Source: Bacteroidales bacterium (lineage in GTDB: Bacteria; Bacteroidota; Bacteroidia; Bacteroidales; UBA932). From it: DNA of 64,000 nucleotides. Each line of letters starts with the position of its first letter. The first letter of the stretch is position 1. Positions 11,464 through 30,925 of this stretch are shown here, piece after piece. Where the stretch lies: contig JAFYUS010000003.1 in the NCBI GenBank assembly GCA_017549505.1, positions 1-64,000 of the forward strand, read 5' to 3'. The position numbers and the translations under genes are program-made. The notes under the pieces were generated by a model. It saw only the letters and a program-made list of their open reading frames with translations. It did no database searches and was not told the DNA's origin.

Positions 11464-12075
11464 ATGCATATAGGTATAGCAGGCAACATCGGTTGCGGAA
11501 AGACAACACTCACAAGAATGCTCTCGCAGCATTACGGATGGACTCCCAAATACGAGTCCGTCACATATAATCCGTATCTGGAAGATTATTACAAGGACAT
11601 AGAACGATGGTCATATAACCTGGAAACCTATTTCCTTGCACAACGTTTCCAGGACCTGTTGGAGATCGCAAAATCAGACGATGTGATCATCCAGGACAGA
11701 ACGATCCTCGAAGGCGTACATATCTTCGTAGCCAACAACAAGGCCATGGGAAATCTTTCAGACCGTGATTTTGACACGTACATGCAGCTTTTCAATCTGA
11801 TGATGTCGATGGTCCGTGAACCGGATCTGCTTATATACCTTAAATCATCTGTCCCCCACCTGGTTTCACAGATCCAGAAACGAGGCAGAGACTACGAAAA
11901 GAGCATCAGTATCGAATATCTGAACAATCTTAACGAAAGGTATGATGCCTGGATAGCAAATTACCCAGGAAAAGTATTGGTAATCGAAGCTGACGACATG
12001 GATTTCGAGAACCGTCCGGAAGATTTTGCACAGATTACAGACAAGATCGACGCACAGCTCTACGGTCTCTTCTAA
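11464..12075 (+). CDS. Deoxynucleoside kinase (deoxyadenosine/deoxyguanosine kinase family)
   Basis: This is a salvage enzyme that phosphorylates deoxynucleosides with ATP. Visible motifs are the P-loop GNIGCGKTT (7-15), the DRTILEG substrate/catalytic block (about 79-85), and an Arg-rich lid region (QKRGRDYEKS, about 138-147). The 203-aa length matches bacterial dAK/dGK-type enzymes. Base preference cannot be decided. It starts 6 bases after gdhA, and its stop overlaps the stop of the convergent LytTR gene (12072-12075). Confidence 0.9.
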   Translation: MHIGIAGNIGCGKTTLTRMLSQHYGWTPKYESVTYNPYLEDYYKDIERWSYNLETYFLAQRFQDLLEIAKSDDVIIQDRTILEGVHIFVANNKAMGNLSDRDFDTYMQLFNLMMSMVREPDLLIYLKSSVPHLVSQIQKRGRDYEKSISIEYLNNLNERYDAWIANYPGKVLVIEADDMDFENRPEDFAQITDKIDAQLYGLF

Positions 12076-12869
12076 AGCATTTCTGAAAGACGGTCGTAGT
12101 ACTTCTTGGAAACAGGAATATGACGCACGTCATTAGCATCAAGTTCAGCATACATTATCCCGTCCTTGTCTTTTCTCAGCACCTTGACATGGACGGGATT
12201 GATGTAGAATGACCTATGGCAACGGATAAGGCCGTTATCCTGGCATAATTCATCCAATGCCTTCATCGAACTCCTAAGTGAGTATTCCCTTACACGGCCG
12301 TTTTCAACATAAAATATGTTCACATAATTTTCTTCAGCCGCAATATAGAGCACGACTGGAGCTGTCAGGACTATCTTCAGATTGTGCTGGTTATCGTAAA
12401 AACGCATTCGTTGTGCCGTATTGTCGTCATGACTGAATTCCTTATGACGATACTCATATATTCTGAGAGAAAGAGCCAGAATTACATATGCGAATATAAG
12501 CGAGAAGAAAAGATATTGAAAAGAGGAAGTGACGAATTCAAAATACAGCATCTTCTTGTCCATGACAAGCCATAGATATAATGCATTGAAGAAGGACATG
12601 AAGATGATTTCAGCAAGACACCAGAATGAATATAGCGTGTAATTCAGCTTCATCGGTATATAATAATAGAGCACTCTTGTAATTACAACCGACAGAAATA
12701 TTATACACGACATTATTGTCAGATGGACACCAAACCATTCACTGCTGAGAAACTCTACGATACCTTTCGGACGCAGAAGGAGCATGAAAGTGAAGAAGAA
12801 AACCGGAAGCACAATCATGTGCAGGAACTGAGGAACAAACTTCCTGAAAATCGACGCAATCTGGGCCAT
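12072..12869 (-). CDS. Membrane-anchored LytTR-family transcriptional regulator
   Basis: The N-terminal half has four hydrophobic helices (about residues 13-30, 45-70, 78-103 and 113-135). The C-terminal 100 residues form a LytTR DNA-binding domain with the characteristic AAEENYVNIFY start, the RSSMKALDE segment and the ICRCHRSF-like LIRCHRSFYINP block. There is no receiver domain, so signal input is probably through the membrane part. This one-component layout is common in Bacteroidetes. Its promoter and a 20-bp phased array lie immediately upstream (12894-12983), implying autoregulation and control of the opposite transcript. Ligand and remote targets are unknown. Confidence 0.9.
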   Translation of the reverse strand: MAQIASIFRKFVPQFLHMIVLPVFFFTFMLLLRPKGIVEFLSSEWFGVHLTIMSCIIFLSVVITRVLYYYIPMKLNYTLYSFWCLAEIIFMSFFNALYLWLVMDKKMLYFEFVTSSFQYLFFSLIFAYVILALSLRIYEYRHKEFSHDDNTAQRMRFYDNQHNLKIVLTAPVVLYIAAEENYVNIFYVENGRVREYSLRSSMKALDELCQDNGLIRCHRSFYINPVHVKVLRKDKDGIMYAELDANDVRHIPVSKKYYDRLSEML

Positions 12870-12893
12870 ATTGTTGTCACTATTTTAGTGTGA

Positions 12894-12925
12894 CAAAATT
12901 ACAAAATATATTTTTTAGTCACAAA
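12894..12925 (-). promoter_or_regulatory. Promoter of the LytTR gene
   Basis: On the minus strand TTTG (12922-12925) and TAATTTTG (12894-12901) are separated by 20 bp, matching the Bacteroidetes -33/-7 consensus. The predicted start is near 12887, giving an 18-base leader. That leader includes an inverted repeat (TTGTCAC at 12874-12880, GTGACAA at 12890-12896). The -33 element overlaps a TCACA core of the array. Confidence 0.65.
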
Positions 12926-12992
12926 TAATTGATTTTAGTCACAAAAACAGGAGTGATATCACATTTCTACCCCACATATCACATTTTCTTTT
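12899..12992. promoter_or_regulatory. Array of TCACA cores at exact 20-bp spacing (candidate LytTR operators)
   Basis: TCACA occurs at 12919, 12939, 12959 and 12979, exactly 20 bp apart. A one-mismatch TTACA sits at 12899, in the same phase. The first two share TTTTAGTCACAAA (12913-12925 and 12933-12945) and the last two share ATATCACATTT (12956-12966 and 12976-12986). LytTR proteins such as AgrA and ComE bind pairs of 9-bp direct repeats separated by about 11-13 bp, so a 20-bp period fits. The array lies upstream of the LytTR gene on one side and of a TACCTTTG promoter on the other. Binding is inferred. Confidence 0.7.
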
Positions 12993-13011
12993 AAATACAT
13001 TTCATTCGTCC

Positions 13012-13019
13012 TACCTTTG
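13012..13019 (+). promoter_or_regulatory. -7 box TACCTTTG facing away from the LytTR gene
   Basis: This is a full match to TAnnTTTG on the plus strand, about 20-30 bp downstream of the last array unit. The phased sites would therefore occupy the activator region from roughly -35 to -107. No protein-coding ORF follows on this strand before the hairpin at 13120-13149. Confidence 0.6.
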
Positions 13020-13025
13020 CTTCCA

Positions 13026-13150
13026 GAAGGTAAAAACAGATAAACTAAAACTGACATAACAATATTGTTAGCACCAGAAATTTACTGCTTGAACCTAAAT
13101 CAAAGTTAAAGTACAATAGAAAGCCGCCGCCTGTGAAGGTAGCGGCTTTT
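13026..13150 (+). ncRNA. Candidate small RNA under LytTR control
   Basis: A promoter box (13012-13019) and a GC-rich hairpin with a T-run (13120-13149) bound about 125 bases that contain no ATG or GTG at all on the plus strand. The stretch holds a perfect 14-bp palindrome (TAACAATATTGTTA, 13057-13070) followed by an A-rich single-stranded region. This is the layout expected of a short regulatory RNA. Alternatives are a promoter remnant of a lost gene, or an antisense leader toward the YfcC gene, whose 3' end lies just beyond. Existence of the RNA is inferred. Confidence 0.4.
13120..13149. terminator. Hairpin terminator shared by the candidate RNA and the YfcC-type gene
   Basis: AAAGCCGC (13120-13127) pairs with GCGGCTTT (13142-13149). 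A T-run follows on the plus strand and a weaker T-rich stretch follows on the minus strand, so it can work in both directions. Confidence 0.65.
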
Positions 13151-13169
13151 GAATTTCACACCAGAGAGG

Positions 13170-14696
13170 CTAAAATCCCGGAAGATCCAGCCAGAGGGTG
13201 GGTAGAAGGAGAATGAAACCGAGAACGACAAGGAGAAGGATGAACTTCCAAACCCATCTGAACCATTTCTCATATGGTATTCTCGCTACAGAAAGAACAG
13301 CCATAAGGACACCGGAACATGGAGTTATCATGTTGGTGAATCCGTCGCCGAACTGAAATGCAAGGACAGTAGCCTGTCGGGAAACCCCTATCATATCTGA
13401 GAAAGGTGCCATGATCGGCATAGTTACAGCCGCCTTGGCAGAAGCTGATGGAATAAAGAGATTGATGAAGGTCTGTATTCCGTACATCGTTCCAAGAGCC
13501 CCTGCCCTACCGGCTCCGTCAAGAGCGGAAGCCATCGACCCGAGCATAGTATCAATGACCTGACCGTTCTTGAGTATCACGATAATACCTGCAGCAAAAC
13601 CTATGACCAGAGCAGCGGAGAATATATCTTTTGCTCCTGCTATGAATTCCTTTGAAATATCGTCTGCCGAGTATCCGGCTGAAAATCCGGCTGCTACTCC
13701 TAATACCATGAAGAGTGCGCAGATTTCAGGAAGATACCAGCCGTAGCCCATGACTCCGATCACCATATACACGATAGTGAACATCAATAGATCAAGTATA
13801 TACATCCTGACGGAAGCCCTCAAAGACAGGATAGAGAAGAATACAAAGAAGGCATCTGCCACCCACATGAGCCACGGAGCAGCAAATTCTGACTGGCCAA
13901 GCTTTATGCTGCACTCATCTGCATAGGACACAGAAAAGAGAACAGTGACTACAGTCAGTAATGCCATACATATCCATGCCTTTTTCTTCGGTAGTTCCTT
14001 TGACTCTGCTCTGGTATCTTCATGTACCTTTTCAGAAGTCAGAAAGTCTGTATTCTTTTTTCTTATCTTAGCGGCATACCACAATACAAACGCTATAGCA
14101 ACAAGCATGAGTATAGTCCAGCAGAAAACTCTGTATTCAATACCGGAGAAAAGAGGTAGTCCCGACATATCCTGGGCAATGCCGATAGTGAAAGGATTCA
14201 ACATGGCACCTGCAAAACCCACATGTGCTGCGACATATACCATACATACGCCTACAATTTCATCATAGCCCAGTGACTTCGCCAGAGGGATGACTACAGC
14301 TACGAACGCAATAGTCTCCTCACTCATGCCGAAAACCGCTCCGAACAGTCCGAAAAGCAGCATTATCAGCACAATCACGATGTTTCCTACACCCATCTTG
14401 CGTACAAGAGAGAATCTTTCCAGAGAATTGACTTTGGAAATGAAGGCCATGATGCCTTCATCAACAGACTTGGTACTGTTGACTACCCAGAATGCGCCAC
14501 CGATTATCAGCACGAAGGCTATGATGCCTGCCTGCTGGCTGAATCCTTCATATAATGCGGAGAAAACCTGCCATGTCTGCGGGTTACCTCCTGGCACAAA
14601 CCATGTCGAGATTGCACATATGGCGATTACAGTAAAGATTATTACATAAGTATTGGGTACCTTGAACTTCTTCATACGCGGTATCTGTTTTTGCAA
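13170..14696 (-). CDS. YfcC-family (DcuC/C4-dicarboxylate-carrier-like) transporter
   Basis: This is a 508-aa inner-membrane secondary transporter with about 12 hydrophobic segments. Family-typical features are the opening KKFKVPNTYVIIF...TWFVPGG, the GAVFGMSEETIAF block (about 118-130) and the re-entrant-like NPFTIGIAQ (about 166-174). YfcC relatives are annotated as basic amino-acid or dicarboxylate carriers; substrate here is not decidable. An internal ATG at 14675 starts closer to the conserved KKFKVP and may be the real start. The gene stands alone, between the LytTR regulatory region and the amidase gene. Confidence 0.8.
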   Translation of the reverse strand: MQKQIPRMKKFKVPNTYVIIFTVIAICAISTWFVPGGNPQTWQVFSALYEGFSQQAGIIAFVLIIGGAFWVVNSTKSVDEGIMAFISKVNSLERFSLVRKMGVGNIVIVLIMLLFGLFGAVFGMSEETIAFVAVVIPLAKSLGYDEIVGVCMVYVAAHVGFAGAMLNPFTIGIAQDMSGLPLFSGIEYRVFCWTILMLVAIAFVLWYAAKIRKKNTDFLTSEKVHEDTRAESKELPKKKAWICMALLTVVTVLFSVSYADECSIKLGQSEFAAPWLMWVADAFFVFFSILSLRASVRMYILDLLMFTIVYMVIGVMGYGWYLPEICALFMVLGVAAGFSAGYSADDISKEFIAGAKDIFSAALVIGFAAGIIVILKNGQVIDTMLGSMASALDGAGRAGALGTMYGIQTFINLFIPSASAKAAVTMPIMAPFSDMIGVSRQATVLAFQFGDGFTNMITPCSGVLMAVLSVARIPYEKWFRWVWKFILLLVVLGFILLLPTLWLDLPGF

Positions 14697-14715
14697 CCGC
14701 GAATATACGAAATTT

Positions 14716-14746
14716 CGCCGGAGCCTGAGCCATCAGGTTTCCGGCG
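14716..14746. other. Stem-loop in the gap between the YfcC and amidase genes
   Basis: CGCCGGA (14716-14722) pairs with TCCGGCG (14740-14746), with an inner CCTGA/TCAGG stem. No clean T-run follows. It lies upstream of the YfcC start on the same strand and could be part of a terminator or leader structure. Confidence 0.4.
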
Positions 14747-14774
14747 AACGGAAATAAAGATGAAATATGATGAG

Positions 14775-14808
14775 CCTCTGCAGATGGCTGGCCTCGCCAC
14801 AGCAGAGG
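14775..14808 (-). terminator. Possible terminator of the choloylglycine-hydrolase-family gene
   Basis: CCTCTGC (14775-14781) pairs with GCAGAGG (14802-14808) just after the stop codon. On the minus strand a moderately T-rich tract follows. The stem is only 7 bp with a long loop. Confidence 0.4.
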
Positions 14809-14817
14809 ACGAAGTGA

Positions 14818-15900
14818 TTATTTGACCTTGACGATCTCTACAGGCTGTACCTGAGTCTGGTCAAGAGGATGAGACTGGTACTTTACCTTATGGAAATCTA
14901 TATCCATAAGATCTATGCATCTGATATTGCTGTTCCACGCAGTCCTGTAGTACAACTTCATGGATTTCAGGTCTGTAGCAGCCGTGAACTGAGTCGCGCT
15001 AGGCATATTCTTAGGTATTTCACTCTTTATATGCTGCGAACCGATAGGTATATCGAAGTTGTTCAGGATGTGAAATGCCTGGATAACTGTATCAAAACCC
15101 GTAGCCCATACAGGAGATGTTGTCTGGAAAAATGTAGCACGCACAAATCTTGAAGGAGATGTAAAGTCTCCCGGGAGTCCGAGCATTCCTCCGCCATGTC
15201 CCAACTGCTTCAATGTAATGCCGGGCTTGATCGTGTTATCTGGAGCGGAACCGGGCTGCAGGTTCACATAATTGTTGAGATTTGTCATATGCCATTGGAA
15301 ACCAGGAGCATTGGTGATCACTCCGAGCTTGTTTTCATAGAAGTGAGGTACACCGCCGACAACTTCAAGCACTACCATACGTCCGTTTGGCTCGGTAATC
15401 CTCCAATGTACAGCGCCGATCTTGCTGTCAAGAGTGACAAGGGAAAGTTCTGAAAGTTCTTCCTTTACCTGATCTATGGTAGAACACTGGGAAAGGACCC
15501 ATGAAACGAACTGCATGTCGCAGATCGTCTTGTCGTTGTCGGCAGAATTGTATGGAGCATATTCTCCGTATTGAGGGAAGAAGAACAGACCGGCAGAGAG
15601 ACCCGCCTCATTCACACCTTCGACGACAAAAGGCTCATATTCAGTATAGATTCCCACATAACCATATACACCTTTATATTTGAGTCCATTCTCCCCTGTC
15701 GGAGTATATGACTGATGCATATGTCCTCTTGGAGCAACTACATAACCGCACTGCATAGGAGTGGCAGCCCATTCGACAGTTCGTGCGACAACCCTGCTGC
15801 CGTCTTGAGCAGTCAGACTGATTCCTGTGCATGCACTTGCCTTATCTGCATACAGCGCTACTGCGAACGCCATTGCAATAAATACTATAAAACGTTTCAT
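14818..15900 (-). CDS. Choloylglycine hydrolase / linear amide C-N hydrolase (Ntn hydrolase)
   Basis: This is an exported N-terminal-nucleophile amidase of the bile-salt-hydrolase/penicillin-V-acylase family. The signal peptide ends at ASA and exposes Cys24 as the catalytic nucleophile. Other family landmarks are VARTVEW (Arg40), the ITNAPGFQWHMTNLNNY block around residue 200 and SPSRFVRATF (Arg) near 245. The 360-aa length fits the Gram-negative branch. Members cleave conjugated bile acids, penicillin V or acyl-homoserine lactones, and the sequence alone does not choose between them. It is transcribed alone, divergent from the methyltransferase gene. Confidence 0.88.
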   Translation of the reverse strand: MKRFIVFIAMAFAVALYADKASACTGISLTAQDGSRVVARTVEWAATPMQCGYVVAPRGHMHQSYTPTGENGLKYKGVYGYVGIYTEYEPFVVEGVNEAGLSAGLFFFPQYGEYAPYNSADNDKTICDMQFVSWVLSQCSTIDQVKEELSELSLVTLDSKIGAVHWRITEPNGRMVVLEVVGGVPHFYENKLGVITNAPGFQWHMTNLNNYVNLQPGSAPDNTIKPGITLKQLGHGGGMLGLPGDFTSPSRFVRATFFQTTSPVWATGFDTVIQAFHILNNFDIPIGSQHIKSEIPKNMPSATQFTAATDLKSMKLYYRTAWNSNIRCIDLMDIDFHKVKYQSHPLDQTQVQPVEIVKVK

Positions 15901-28878: not shown

Positions 28879-29858
28879 AACGCCATGGTGAATGATGGCT
28901 TGCCTATCTTGTAGAGCAGGATATTGACAATCTGGCCAGGCCTTAATGAAAACAGGCCAAGACGATTGTCTTCGGACATATATGAATATAGAGTCGAGAT
29001 ATTCGATTCTGTCATCAGCGATGACTTGCCTCGTGCAAAGACCGTCAGAATCCTGCACACGTATCTCCCGATGAAATCCACATGATAAAGTTCCGCAAGC
29101 CTGATGCTCGAAGGGAACCTCGACTTCAGGCCGTCAAGAACAGGCCGGTATCTTTCCAACAGAAGGAATAACTGGCTCAGATGGCGGTCAGAGGTAAGAT
29201 CGCTGCTGAGAGATTCCGGCTGAAGAATATAATCATACACAATATCCGGAACAGTAAGCACCTTATTGACATAAGACAGAAAGGTAAAGACAAACATCTT
29301 GTCCTCACCATATCTGAGTTCCTCGTCAAACCTGATTCCGTTATCCCGTATGATTGAAAGGCGGAAGAGTTTGAAACATGCAGAATTGAGCAGATAACTA
29401 TGCTTGCGTGTTATTGTCCTGTCCAGGAAGTTCGCGACTTCATTGACATCACGGTACTCTATTTTTGCCGACGGCTTATATGACTCGACAACTGACATTT
29501 CGCATAACTTGGCAAAGCCGCCGAGAATCATGTCAAACCCACGTCGGTACATCATCTGCAATGTATCGAACCTGACAGCATCATCTGCATCCAGGAACAT
29601 CACATACTCGCCGGCAGCGACATCAAGGCCGGCATTCCTGGCAGAGCTGACACCTCCGTTTTCCTTATGAACGACCTTGATTCTATCATCCTGTGATGCA
29701 AGACAATCACAAAGGTTTCCGGAATTGTCTGTACTTCCGTCATCAACAAGAATCACTTCAAGAGGTTCATACTCATGTATGGTGATACTGTTGACGGCTC
29801 TCTCTATTGTATCTTCGGCATTGTAGACCGGTATTATTACAGATATATTTACCTTCAT
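28848..29858 (-). CDS. Glycosyltransferase family 2 (GT-A)
   Basis: This is an inverting transferase with the standard start ISVIIPVYNAEDTIERAV. It carries VDDGSTDNS and the metal-binding DADDA (DxD-like), then a C-terminal region typical of capsule/LPS sugar transferases. It is last gene of the four-gene polysaccharide operon. The frame extends to 29864, but the ATG at 29858 gives the same ATGA stop/start overlap seen at the other two junctions. Donor and acceptor are unknown. Confidence 0.88.
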   Translation of the reverse strand: MKVNISVIIPVYNAEDTIERAVNSITIHEYEPLEVILVDDGSTDNSGNLCDCLASQDDRIKVVHKENGGVSSARNAGLDVAAGEYVMFLDADDAVRFDTLQMMYRRGFDMILGGFAKLCEMSVVESYKPSAKIEYRDVNEVANFLDRTITRKHSYLLNSACFKLFRLSIIRDNGIRFDEELRYGEDKMFVFTFLSYVNKVLTVPDIVYDYILQPESLSSDLTSDRHLSQLFLLLERYRPVLDGLKSRFPSSIRLAELYHVDFIGRYVCRILTVFARGKSSLMTESNISTLYSYMSEDNRLGLFSLRPGQIVNILLYKIGKPSFTMAFYRFTSMMSR

Positions 29859-30925
29859 ATCCATTCTTCAATAAATGCGAAAGATTTCCTGCGCAATGCT
29901 TCCAATGAAGTCCTTATGACGGAATAATCCATAGGAGAAGGAGTCATGGGATTATACCTTTCGACCAGTCGGTCCGAAGCTCCCAAAGAATCTAGAAGTT
30001 CCCTGTACCTGAGGTCGTAACCGTTCCATAGAGGAAGAGCATAGAACGGGCGCTCGAACAATATCGAGAAGACACATCCGTGAAAGGAGGTCGTCACGAC
30101 ATATTCTGCATATCTGAACAAGGAGACAAAATCCGTCACGGACCTGTCTACACGGGACAGATCGATCACTTCACACCCGTCCCCTATATGGGAAGCTATC
30201 TGTTCAGCCTTCCTTATCAGAAGCCCTTTATCTTCATCCTTACGTCTGACTTCATATACAAGCACATATTTACGTCTCTTCCATCTCTCATTGATCAAAG
30301 GAGTCCATATCGAAGAATCTGTCAGCAAAGTAGGGTCTACACAGACTTCGCATGGCCTTCCAGTATATGAAGACACCCTTTCAGCGACCTCTTTTTCCCT
30401 CATTGACAATGCATCGAATCCCGACACAAGGAACGGGAGTTCAGCTTCGACTGCCTCAATGGATTTCATATCTGCACTTACAGCATATCCTATGACACGA
30501 CTTCCGGCGCCATGGTGAAATTTACCGAAATACACATCATCGGTTTCTCCGCCCAGGCAATGGAGGCTCCACAACTGGTCGCTTCCTATCACATAGCAGT
30601 CGAAGTCTTGAGGAACATCATTGCCGCAAGGCAATGTGAGCTCAAGGAAATTGAGCCTGAATGAGCTGAAATTCCTGCTTCTGTGCGGAGCCAGAAGAAA
30701 CTTCTTGAGATTCTTTCTGACATATGCCGCTTTTCCTGCAATTCCATCCGCATCACTAAAGAGCTTCCGGCTGAACACCTTATAGAATTCTTCTATCCAG
30801 GGCTGACGATAATCTATTATCCGCACATCATGTCCCCTGCGTTTCAGGATTTCCTGCAACGCATAGCATTGGAGCACGGCGCCATAATTATGCGCGCGAT
30901 GAAATGTCAAAATACCTACTTTCAT
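29855..30925 (-). CDS. Polysaccharide pyruvyl transferase family protein
   Basis: The protein probably adds a ketal pyruvate to a sugar of the surface polysaccharide. The opening KVGILTFHRAHNYGAVLQCYALQ, VIGSDQLWSL, and TSFHGCVFSILF near the C-terminus are hallmarks of the CsaB/WcaK-type fold. Translation from 30925 forms an ATGA overlap with the upstream gene, so the longer frame to 30982 is not needed. It lies directly after an FrhB-like gene, a frequent pairing in Bacteroides capsule loci. Confidence 0.85.
   Translation of the reverse strand: MKVGILTFHRAHNYGAVLQCYALQEILKRRGHDVRIIDYRQPWIEEFYKVFSRKLFSDADGIAGKAAYVRKNLKKFLLAPHRSRNFSSFRLNFLELTLPCGNDVPQDFDCYVIGSDQLWSLHCLGGETDDVYFGKFHHGAGSRVIGYAVSADMKSIEAVEAELPFLVSGFDALSMREKEVAERVSSYTGRPCEVCVDPTLLTDSSIWTPLINERWKRRKYVLVYEVRRKDEDKGLLIRKAEQIASHIGDGCEVIDLSRVDRSVTDFVSLFRYAEYVVTTSFHGCVFSILFERPFYALPLWNGYDLRYRELLDSLGASDRLVERYNPMTPSPMDYSVIRTSLEALRRKSFAFIEEWI

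Follow-up and report, generated by a model that had tools for sequence, protein, structure and literature searches.

A phased array of putative LytTR half-sites separates a membrane LytTR gene from an apparent divergent small RNA gene with a predicted acyl-CoA-ligase-like target in Bacteroidales

The locus described here lies in a 64,000-nucleotide stretch (the window) of a Bacteroidales contig whose genome is 2.1 Mb in size, with a completeness of 78%. The product of the lytTR gene (12072..12869, minus strand) has four predicted membrane helices and, C-terminal to them, a LytTR DNA-binding domain. Kyte-Doolittle peaks place the helices at residues 14-32, 46-64, 84-102, and 120-138, and the Pfam search assigns residues 172-265 to PF04397 (E 3.2e-14; 53.3 bits vs a cut-off of 22.6); an MHYT domain was absent from the product in the Pfam search. 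The neighbors of lytTR are a convergent deoxynucleoside kinase gene and, on the same strand and running toward lytTR, a DcuC-family, YfcC-like transporter gene. All 12 named records in which lytTR has a close relative are Bacteroidales MAGs, and 11 of them are labelled as hindgut sections (goat, sheep, deer, water buffalo). An orthologue set of 21 distinct loci (56-70% protein identity) was assembled, with duplicates between two collections dropped and two loci cut at a contig end (L036 and L065) excluded; aligned with the window, their intergenic regions give 22 sequences. Comparison of the intergenic region with phages gave zero matches.

Four perfect TCACA cores are found on the plus strand of this region at 12919..12923, 12939..12943, 12959..12963, and 12979..12983 (half-sites 1-4), in an exact 20-bp phase. 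The first-pass annotation, made from the letters alone, had reported these cores, their phase, and two types of flank, and all of this is borne out. The pattern TCACA-N15-TCACA occurs three times in the window, always within the array, where 0.20 occurrences are expected, and none of 100 window shuffles reached three. Half-sites 1 and 2 are embedded in TTTTAGTCACAAA (12913-12925 and 12933-12945) and half-sites 3 and 4 in ATATCACATTT (12956-12966 and 12976-12986); both flanks are recognizable in the orthologues. The orthologues, which retain the gene, also keep the 20-bp phase, so that the refuting condition set for the first-pass interpretation did not arise among them. The cores themselves vary among the 22 sequences. 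Half-site 1 reads TCACA in 6 and TCCCA in 16, and half-site 2 reads TCACA in 9, TCCCA in 10, and otherwise in 3. TCACA prevails at half-site 3 (15, other 7), which has the most variants, and at half-site 4 (14, other 8). The TTACA at 12899, previously taken as an in-phase fifth site, belongs to the lytTR -7 box. The lytTR leader does hold a fifth half-site that is conserved (12877..12881, plus strand), 42 bp from half-site 1; it is TCACT in the window and one other sequence and TCACA in 20/22. Near the inferred lytTR start point lies an inverted half-site, TGTGA (12889..12893, plus strand; TGTGA in 18 and TGGGA in 4 of the 22). An RNA hairpin in the lytTR leader is unlikely, as the change from TGTGA to TGGGA in 4/22 is unmatched in the opposite arm. 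Since the arm at 12877-12881 is TCACA or TCACT in all 22, a protein site is the likelier explanation.

The half-sites stand between two oppositely directed promoters that were compared with the consensus TAnnTTTG/TTTG, as quoted in PMC7366714. The lytTR -7 box, TAATTTTG (12894..12901, minus strand), and the -7 box of the divergent promoter, TACCTTTG (13012..13019, plus strand), both retain TAnnTTTG in 22/22, and the 125 bp between them are gap-free in all 22 aligned sequences. The lytTR -33 element, TTTG (12922..12925, minus strand), is 19-21 bp from its -7 box in 22/22 and overlaps half-site 1, in agreement with the overlap claimed earlier. The divergent promoter carries TTTG at -33 in just two of the 22 sequences and is without it in 20; half-site 4 lies immediately upstream of this -33 region and ∼44 nt before the inferred transcript start. 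Because half-site 1 covers the lytTR -33 and the fifth pair covers the inferred start, the arrangement suggests that LytTR represses its own gene. Activation of the divergent promoter by LytTR is likewise suggested, because half-site 4 adjoins a -33 region that mostly lacks TTTG.

LytTR regulators bind direct repeats spaced by roughly two helical turns, and similar sites accompany LytTR genes well beyond the orthologues. Upstream of 32 more distant LytTR genes (27-45% identity, with L053 and L054 nearly the same sequence), the gene strand holds 27 pairs of [ATG]G[GT]GA spaced 20 bp apart, vs a mean of 0.14 and a maximum of 2 in mononucleotide shuffles. A phased pair precedes 18 of the 32 genes, for which reason the LytTR protein is the likely binder of the half-sites; the other 14 are without any. 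In six distant loci (L052, L053, L054, L057, L059, and L063), the divergent partner of LytTR looks by eye like a protein gene, with GDSL-type or glycosyltransferase-like starts, and not like an sRNA; phased sites are present in five of them and absent from L059. As the divergent genes differ by eye in several distant loci, the array appears to track the LytTR gene and not its neighbor. A two-site scan of the genome for the paired operator, of the kind the first-pass annotation had proposed, gave two overlapping placements at this locus and one match with one mismatch, vs one and one in the control. The operator is therefore essentially unique to the locus, the sole extra match being at background level, and the scan points to no clear further LytTR targets.

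The first-pass annotation left the product of the divergent promoter unnamed. That product is apparently an sRNA. A putative small RNA gene with a predicted start and end (13025..13155, plus strand) is conserved in the 22 aligned sequences, at lengths of 67-137 nt; it has its own promoter box and a terminator-like hairpin and is without a generally conserved reading frame. Downstream of the promoter, AAGTTAAAGTACA is exact in 18/22 sequences, the departures being one change or deletion in L038, L043, and L050 and an altered end in L074. The sRNA motif AAGUUAAAGUACA, exact in 18/22, stays unpaired in all but one of six folds, that of L066, where it is partly paired. In the window the seed is ATCAAAGTTAAAGTACA (13099..13115, plus strand), which is unpaired in the fold. 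The hairpin that follows (13119..13150, plus strand) is indicated by both folding and covariation, with 93.9% of cells paired and double-sided changes at 8 of the 12 pairs across the 22 sequences; this covariation is above all controls, except that 1 of 500 shuffles reached one measure, and the alignment was fitted to the structure. Since the same GTGA-loop type of hairpin is found in an ordinary terminator of this genome (L078), the sRNA hairpin is read as a terminator.

An Rfam search of 12000-15000 returned just mir-788 (E 0.45), outside the sRNA, and searches of five loci returned nothing up to E 0.5; a FopS model may be absent from the Rfam copy searched. The next-best match of the sRNA search (R1) in the genome was a terminator (E 0.0055). 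Among 200 genomes of the genus, 13 were matched by R1 at E 0.001, 11 of them at the lytTR locus, one at a terminator (G275), and one through the hairpin only (G329). Second copies of the sRNA were considered and rejected, as the extra R1 matches inspected are terminators (L078, L098, and L099) or the ligase site described below (L080). The sRNAs of the window, L042, L043, and L074 are longer by a segment (∼13045-13095 in the window) that contains a palindrome, TAACAATATTGTTA in the window, and is missing from shorter orthologues. In the sRNA of L074 (504-641, minus strand) the end of the seed is altered (GTTAAAGTTGA).

The YfcC-like gene converges on the sRNA promoter with the hairpin between them, and the hairpin could terminate that gene too; the facing transcript might then be a terminator or untranslated scrap of the YfcC-like gene, leaving only a bidirectional autoregulatory switch. 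We consider this improbable: the facing -7 box is kept in 22/22 and the exact seed in 18/22, lytTR keeps the sRNA beside it even at loci whose next gene differs by eye (L044, L045, L046, L049, L050, and L051), and complementary leader sites accompany it. That the product of the rightward transcript is instead a short peptide, which the LytTR protein would sense or which would act on that protein, is very hard to credit. Although the window holds a 14-codon TTG-started frame, and L047, L067, and L074 have in common a TTG-started frame, LKP(D/E)SKLK, through the conserved block, that frame is found in just 3/22 sequences; the longest closed ATG/GTG/TTG frame is two codons or none in 15/22, and 16/22 have no ATG. 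As for the array, its TGTGA/TCACA core resembles a CRP half-site, and a regulator other than LytTR, such as a CRP-like factor, might bind it. This too is quite improbable, because the repeats run in one direction, TCCCA equals or outnumbers TCACA at two half-sites, and the sole inverted pair, TCACA-N-TGTGA, has a polarity opposite to that of a CRP site. The sites also travel with LytTR genes at 36-45% identity. A bidirectional region that holds LytTR-type half-sites, as first proposed, is well supported by the phase in the orthologues and upstream of 18/32 distant genes, but the locus appears to be more than an autoregulatory switch, as the facing promoter heads a conserved sRNA.

By sequence, the unpaired seed of this sRNA complements the translation initiation regions of genes to which it is not linked. 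In this genome (G000), the exact complement of the 13-nt sRNA motif occurs in two places, the sRNA itself and the leader of an AMP-binding, acyl-CoA-ligase-like gene, where it lies four nucleotides before the start codon and belongs to a perfect 17-bp duplex. Two genes on one strand, probably an operon, are separated there by 21 nt, and the site takes up this gap. The candidate target gene resembles long-chain acyl-CoA ligases but falls below the family cut-offs shown, so that any substrate assignment is tentative. The ligase was sought in 30 genomes: 16 with the module and an orthologous ligase, 13 without the module, and G211, with the module and a distant paralogue only. Genomes without the module are those with no LytTR orthologue of the clade (best identity 38-47% in ten, none at E 1e-40 in three). 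A recognizable site precedes the ligase start codon in 16/16 module genomes with the gene vs 0/13 without the module; as the 16 belong to one LytTR clade, such co-occurrence counts, and the permutation test given below, are not independent. The exact 13-mer is found in 5/16 main ligase leaders, the others being off by one or a few bases, and anywhere in the genome in 14/17 module genomes vs 0/13 others. A whole-genome scan for a G-U-tolerant seed complement gave four matches vs four in the control, so only the exact 13-mer is informative.

Predicted duplex energies also differ between these two groups of genomes. In the 16 genomes they range from -16.0 to -26.5 kcal/mol (mean -19.9), vs a mean of -8.6 and a best value of -15.5 kcal/mol for 208 seed-leader combinations with the 13 non-module genomes; the weakest true duplex is thus barely beyond the best control. 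The ligase duplex of this genome reaches -22.3, vs -13.1 for the best of 96 start regions in the window. Seven of 6,392 window stretches of 85 nt reach -16: four are the sRNA's own antisense, and three overlapping ones at 29761-29885 do so by chance (-16.3). At its longest, the duplex runs without interruption for 11-19 bp in 15 of the 16 genomes and for 8 bp in G173, where the site is broken up by two bulges; 2/221 controls reach 11. In the 16 genomes this longest run ends 2-13 nt upstream of the start codon. When 250 genomes of the genus were searched for TTTAACTT-N-ATGGARTT, 23 matched, 16 at ligase leaders and 7 elsewhere; one of the matches outside the ligase leader, in G267, was not recovered on re-scan. 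The 16 comprise 11 of the 17 genomes with a LytTR orthologue, two incomplete MAGs (61% and 72%) in which no LytTR orthologue was found, and three with the 8-nt core only. These last (G371, G301, and G282) carry the core at the ligase leader without a LytTR orthologue, and one of them is 99% complete, so the core alone is no proof; it is the full site that tracks the module.

The core is altered in 3 of the 16 sRNAs (G384, G179, and G377), and in each of these genomes the ligase leader is altered correspondingly. In G384 AAATTAAAG is matched with CTTTAATTT, in G179 TAGTTAAAG with CTTTAACTA, and in G377 one base is deleted on both sides, giving a 19-bp duplex that includes three G-U pairs. The changed sRNAs of G384, G179, and G377 reach -18.1, -17.3, and -26.5 with their own leaders vs -13.0, -13.5, and -15.4 with the other 15. 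When the other 15 sRNAs are placed on the changed leaders, pairing is clearly worse for G377 (-15.0) and nearly at its own level for G384 (-17.1) and G179 (-16.3). The match is therefore strong in one direction only for G384 and G179 and in both directions for G377. Pairing of each sRNA with its own target exceeds all 20,000 random re-pairings, to which relatedness contributes. A motif present in two places would also change in step if the preference of a DNA-binding protein had changed, and the shared TGTACTTTAACTT might accordingly be a DNA motif of another transcription factor at both loci, with no RNA pairing; the sequence TAACTTTG before the ligase in this genome is -7-box-like. We regard this explanation as unlikely, although it deserves some weight. 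The -7-like reading is not retained in most relatives, and at the ligase, as at those fabF and fabZ genes that have it, the complement directly precedes the start codon. Complementarity goes past the core in a genome-specific manner (17 bp in G000, 19 in G377), and in G000 it occupies the 21-nt gap inside the probable operon. Pairing between the sRNA and the ligase leader probably accounts for the sites better, and judged from sequence, the first-pass interpretation covers one half of the case, while a conserved sRNA with a conserved, co-varying target makes up the other.

Fatty-acid-synthesis genes are further candidate targets. The names of the fab genes come from reading of the sequences, except for a FabA-like Pfam match of the fabZ-like fragment. 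A complement is found before fabF as TACTTTAACTT in G173, G179, and G379 and as TACTTTAAC in G000, and before a fabZ-like gene adjacent to fabF in full in G353 and in part in G388; G266 has a further complement ahead of its second ligase copy. Matches to the loose pattern TACTTTAAC-N-ATG were fewer than in the control, and the pattern is uninformative alone; just its TACTTTAACTT subset was followed. The fabF leaders reach -12 or better in 11/17 module genomes vs 4.7% of 170 cross-controls. The fabF and fabZ sites are weaker and variable, and weak in several genomes; the G000 fabF site (-12.9) does not rise above what the window gives as background (-13.1 for the best of 96 start regions; 64/6,392 stretches at -12.9 or better). 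In G171 (L159, contig C28), a full seed complement lies shortly before a multi-helix gene, AraC-like by eye, which is possibly a species-specific extra target. In non-module genomes, ACTAAAACC stands shortly before the start in 2/13 ligase leaders (L121 of G284 and L128 of G153) and in 3/6 fabZ leaders read (G280, G161, and G164). A similar block occurs in sense in many sRNAs, and ACTAAAACC might serve as a translation element or as another site for the sRNA.

Taken as a whole, the membrane LytTR protein, the half-sites, and the divergent sRNA probably constitute a circuit that controls acyl activation and fatty-acid synthesis. The membrane-anchored regulator would bind the half-sites between its own promoter and the oppositely transcribed sRNA promoter. 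At half-sites 1-4 it would activate the sRNA promoter, which mostly has no -33 box of its own, and it would limit its own promoter, where the -33 and the start point are covered. The sRNA, if expressed as predicted, would pair through AAGUUAAAGUACA just upstream of the ligase start codon and in many genomes of fabF or fabZ too, and would block translation of the target mRNA. Translational repression is the likeliest outcome of pairing, because the duplex ends 2-13 nt before the start codon and FopS-10 is reported to have abrogated translation in vitro via the translation initiation region in Bacteroides (PMC11697453). Acyl activation and fatty-acid synthesis would in this way be tuned to a membrane signal; from the membrane domain and the targets, our guess is that the signal is the state of the membrane or its lipids.

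The arrangement has partial counterparts among known systems. CoxC of Afipia is a membrane MHYT-LytTR one-component repressor that binds three direct repeats over a -35 box (PMC11347149). Like the protein described here, for which binding is predicted, it is a single membrane protein with a C-terminal LytTR domain and several direct repeats overlapping a promoter box. In contrast, its three repeats lie at one target promoter, its MHYT domain senses CO, and the portion of the report drawn on mentions no sRNA. In the LRS-like operons of Bacteroides, 11-bp direct repeats with 11-bp spacers occur upstream of membrane-spanning LytTR genes and are presumed to be autoregulatory (PMC6193735). Both systems have a LytTR regulator with transmembrane segments and direct repeats adjoining the regulator promoter. 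Here, however, four 20-bp-phased half-sites and a fifth replace two 11-bp repeats 11 bp apart, and the array is common to a divergent sRNA promoter. Compared with the S. mutans type of LRS, there is no separate membrane inhibitor gene at this locus, the neighbors being kinase and transporter genes. GcvA-GcvB and OxyR-OxyS of enterobacteria have the same divergent layout, a regulator gene opposite the sRNA that it activates, but those regulators are soluble and of the LysR type, whereas this one is a membrane LytTR protein.

The mRNAs of this phylum lack Shine-Dalgarno sequences, and in 2020 it was described as an open question whether and how trans-encoded sRNAs control their targets there (PMC7366714); GibS and FopS have since shown such control in Bacteroides (PMC7366714, PMC11697453). 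As in the published accounts of GibS and FopS of Bacteroides thetaiotaomicron, the present sRNA is short, has an unpaired seed and a terminator, and pairs by prediction with translation initiation regions. It differs in having one copy, a divergent candidate regulator, and acyl ligase and fab targets instead of glycan genes, and in giving no Rfam match, with the reservation on the FopS model made above; the regulator of FopS is called unknown in the portion of its paper used here (PMC11697453). Within the literature searched, neither this sRNA nor a LytTR-sRNA pair was found to be described. With the candidate regulator, its operators, the sRNA, and the main target all visible, natural variation across genomes provides a test of sRNA control outside Bacteroides. 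If the circuit is as proposed, a membrane-spanning LytTR protein gains a lipid-related output. The broader view, that a one-component membrane LytTR sensor acts mainly via one dedicated sRNA in a membrane-lipid triad of uncultured Bacteroidales and that LytTR proteins are general lipid regulators of this group, is tentative, and we put it a little short of an even chance. A LytTR paralogue was examined upstream (L005), and 20-bp phased sites were absent there by simple pattern. This second membrane-spanning LytTR gene (L234:10184-11077, contig C51 of G000; 27% identity) is divergent from a fabH-fabK-fabF-fabZ-like run.
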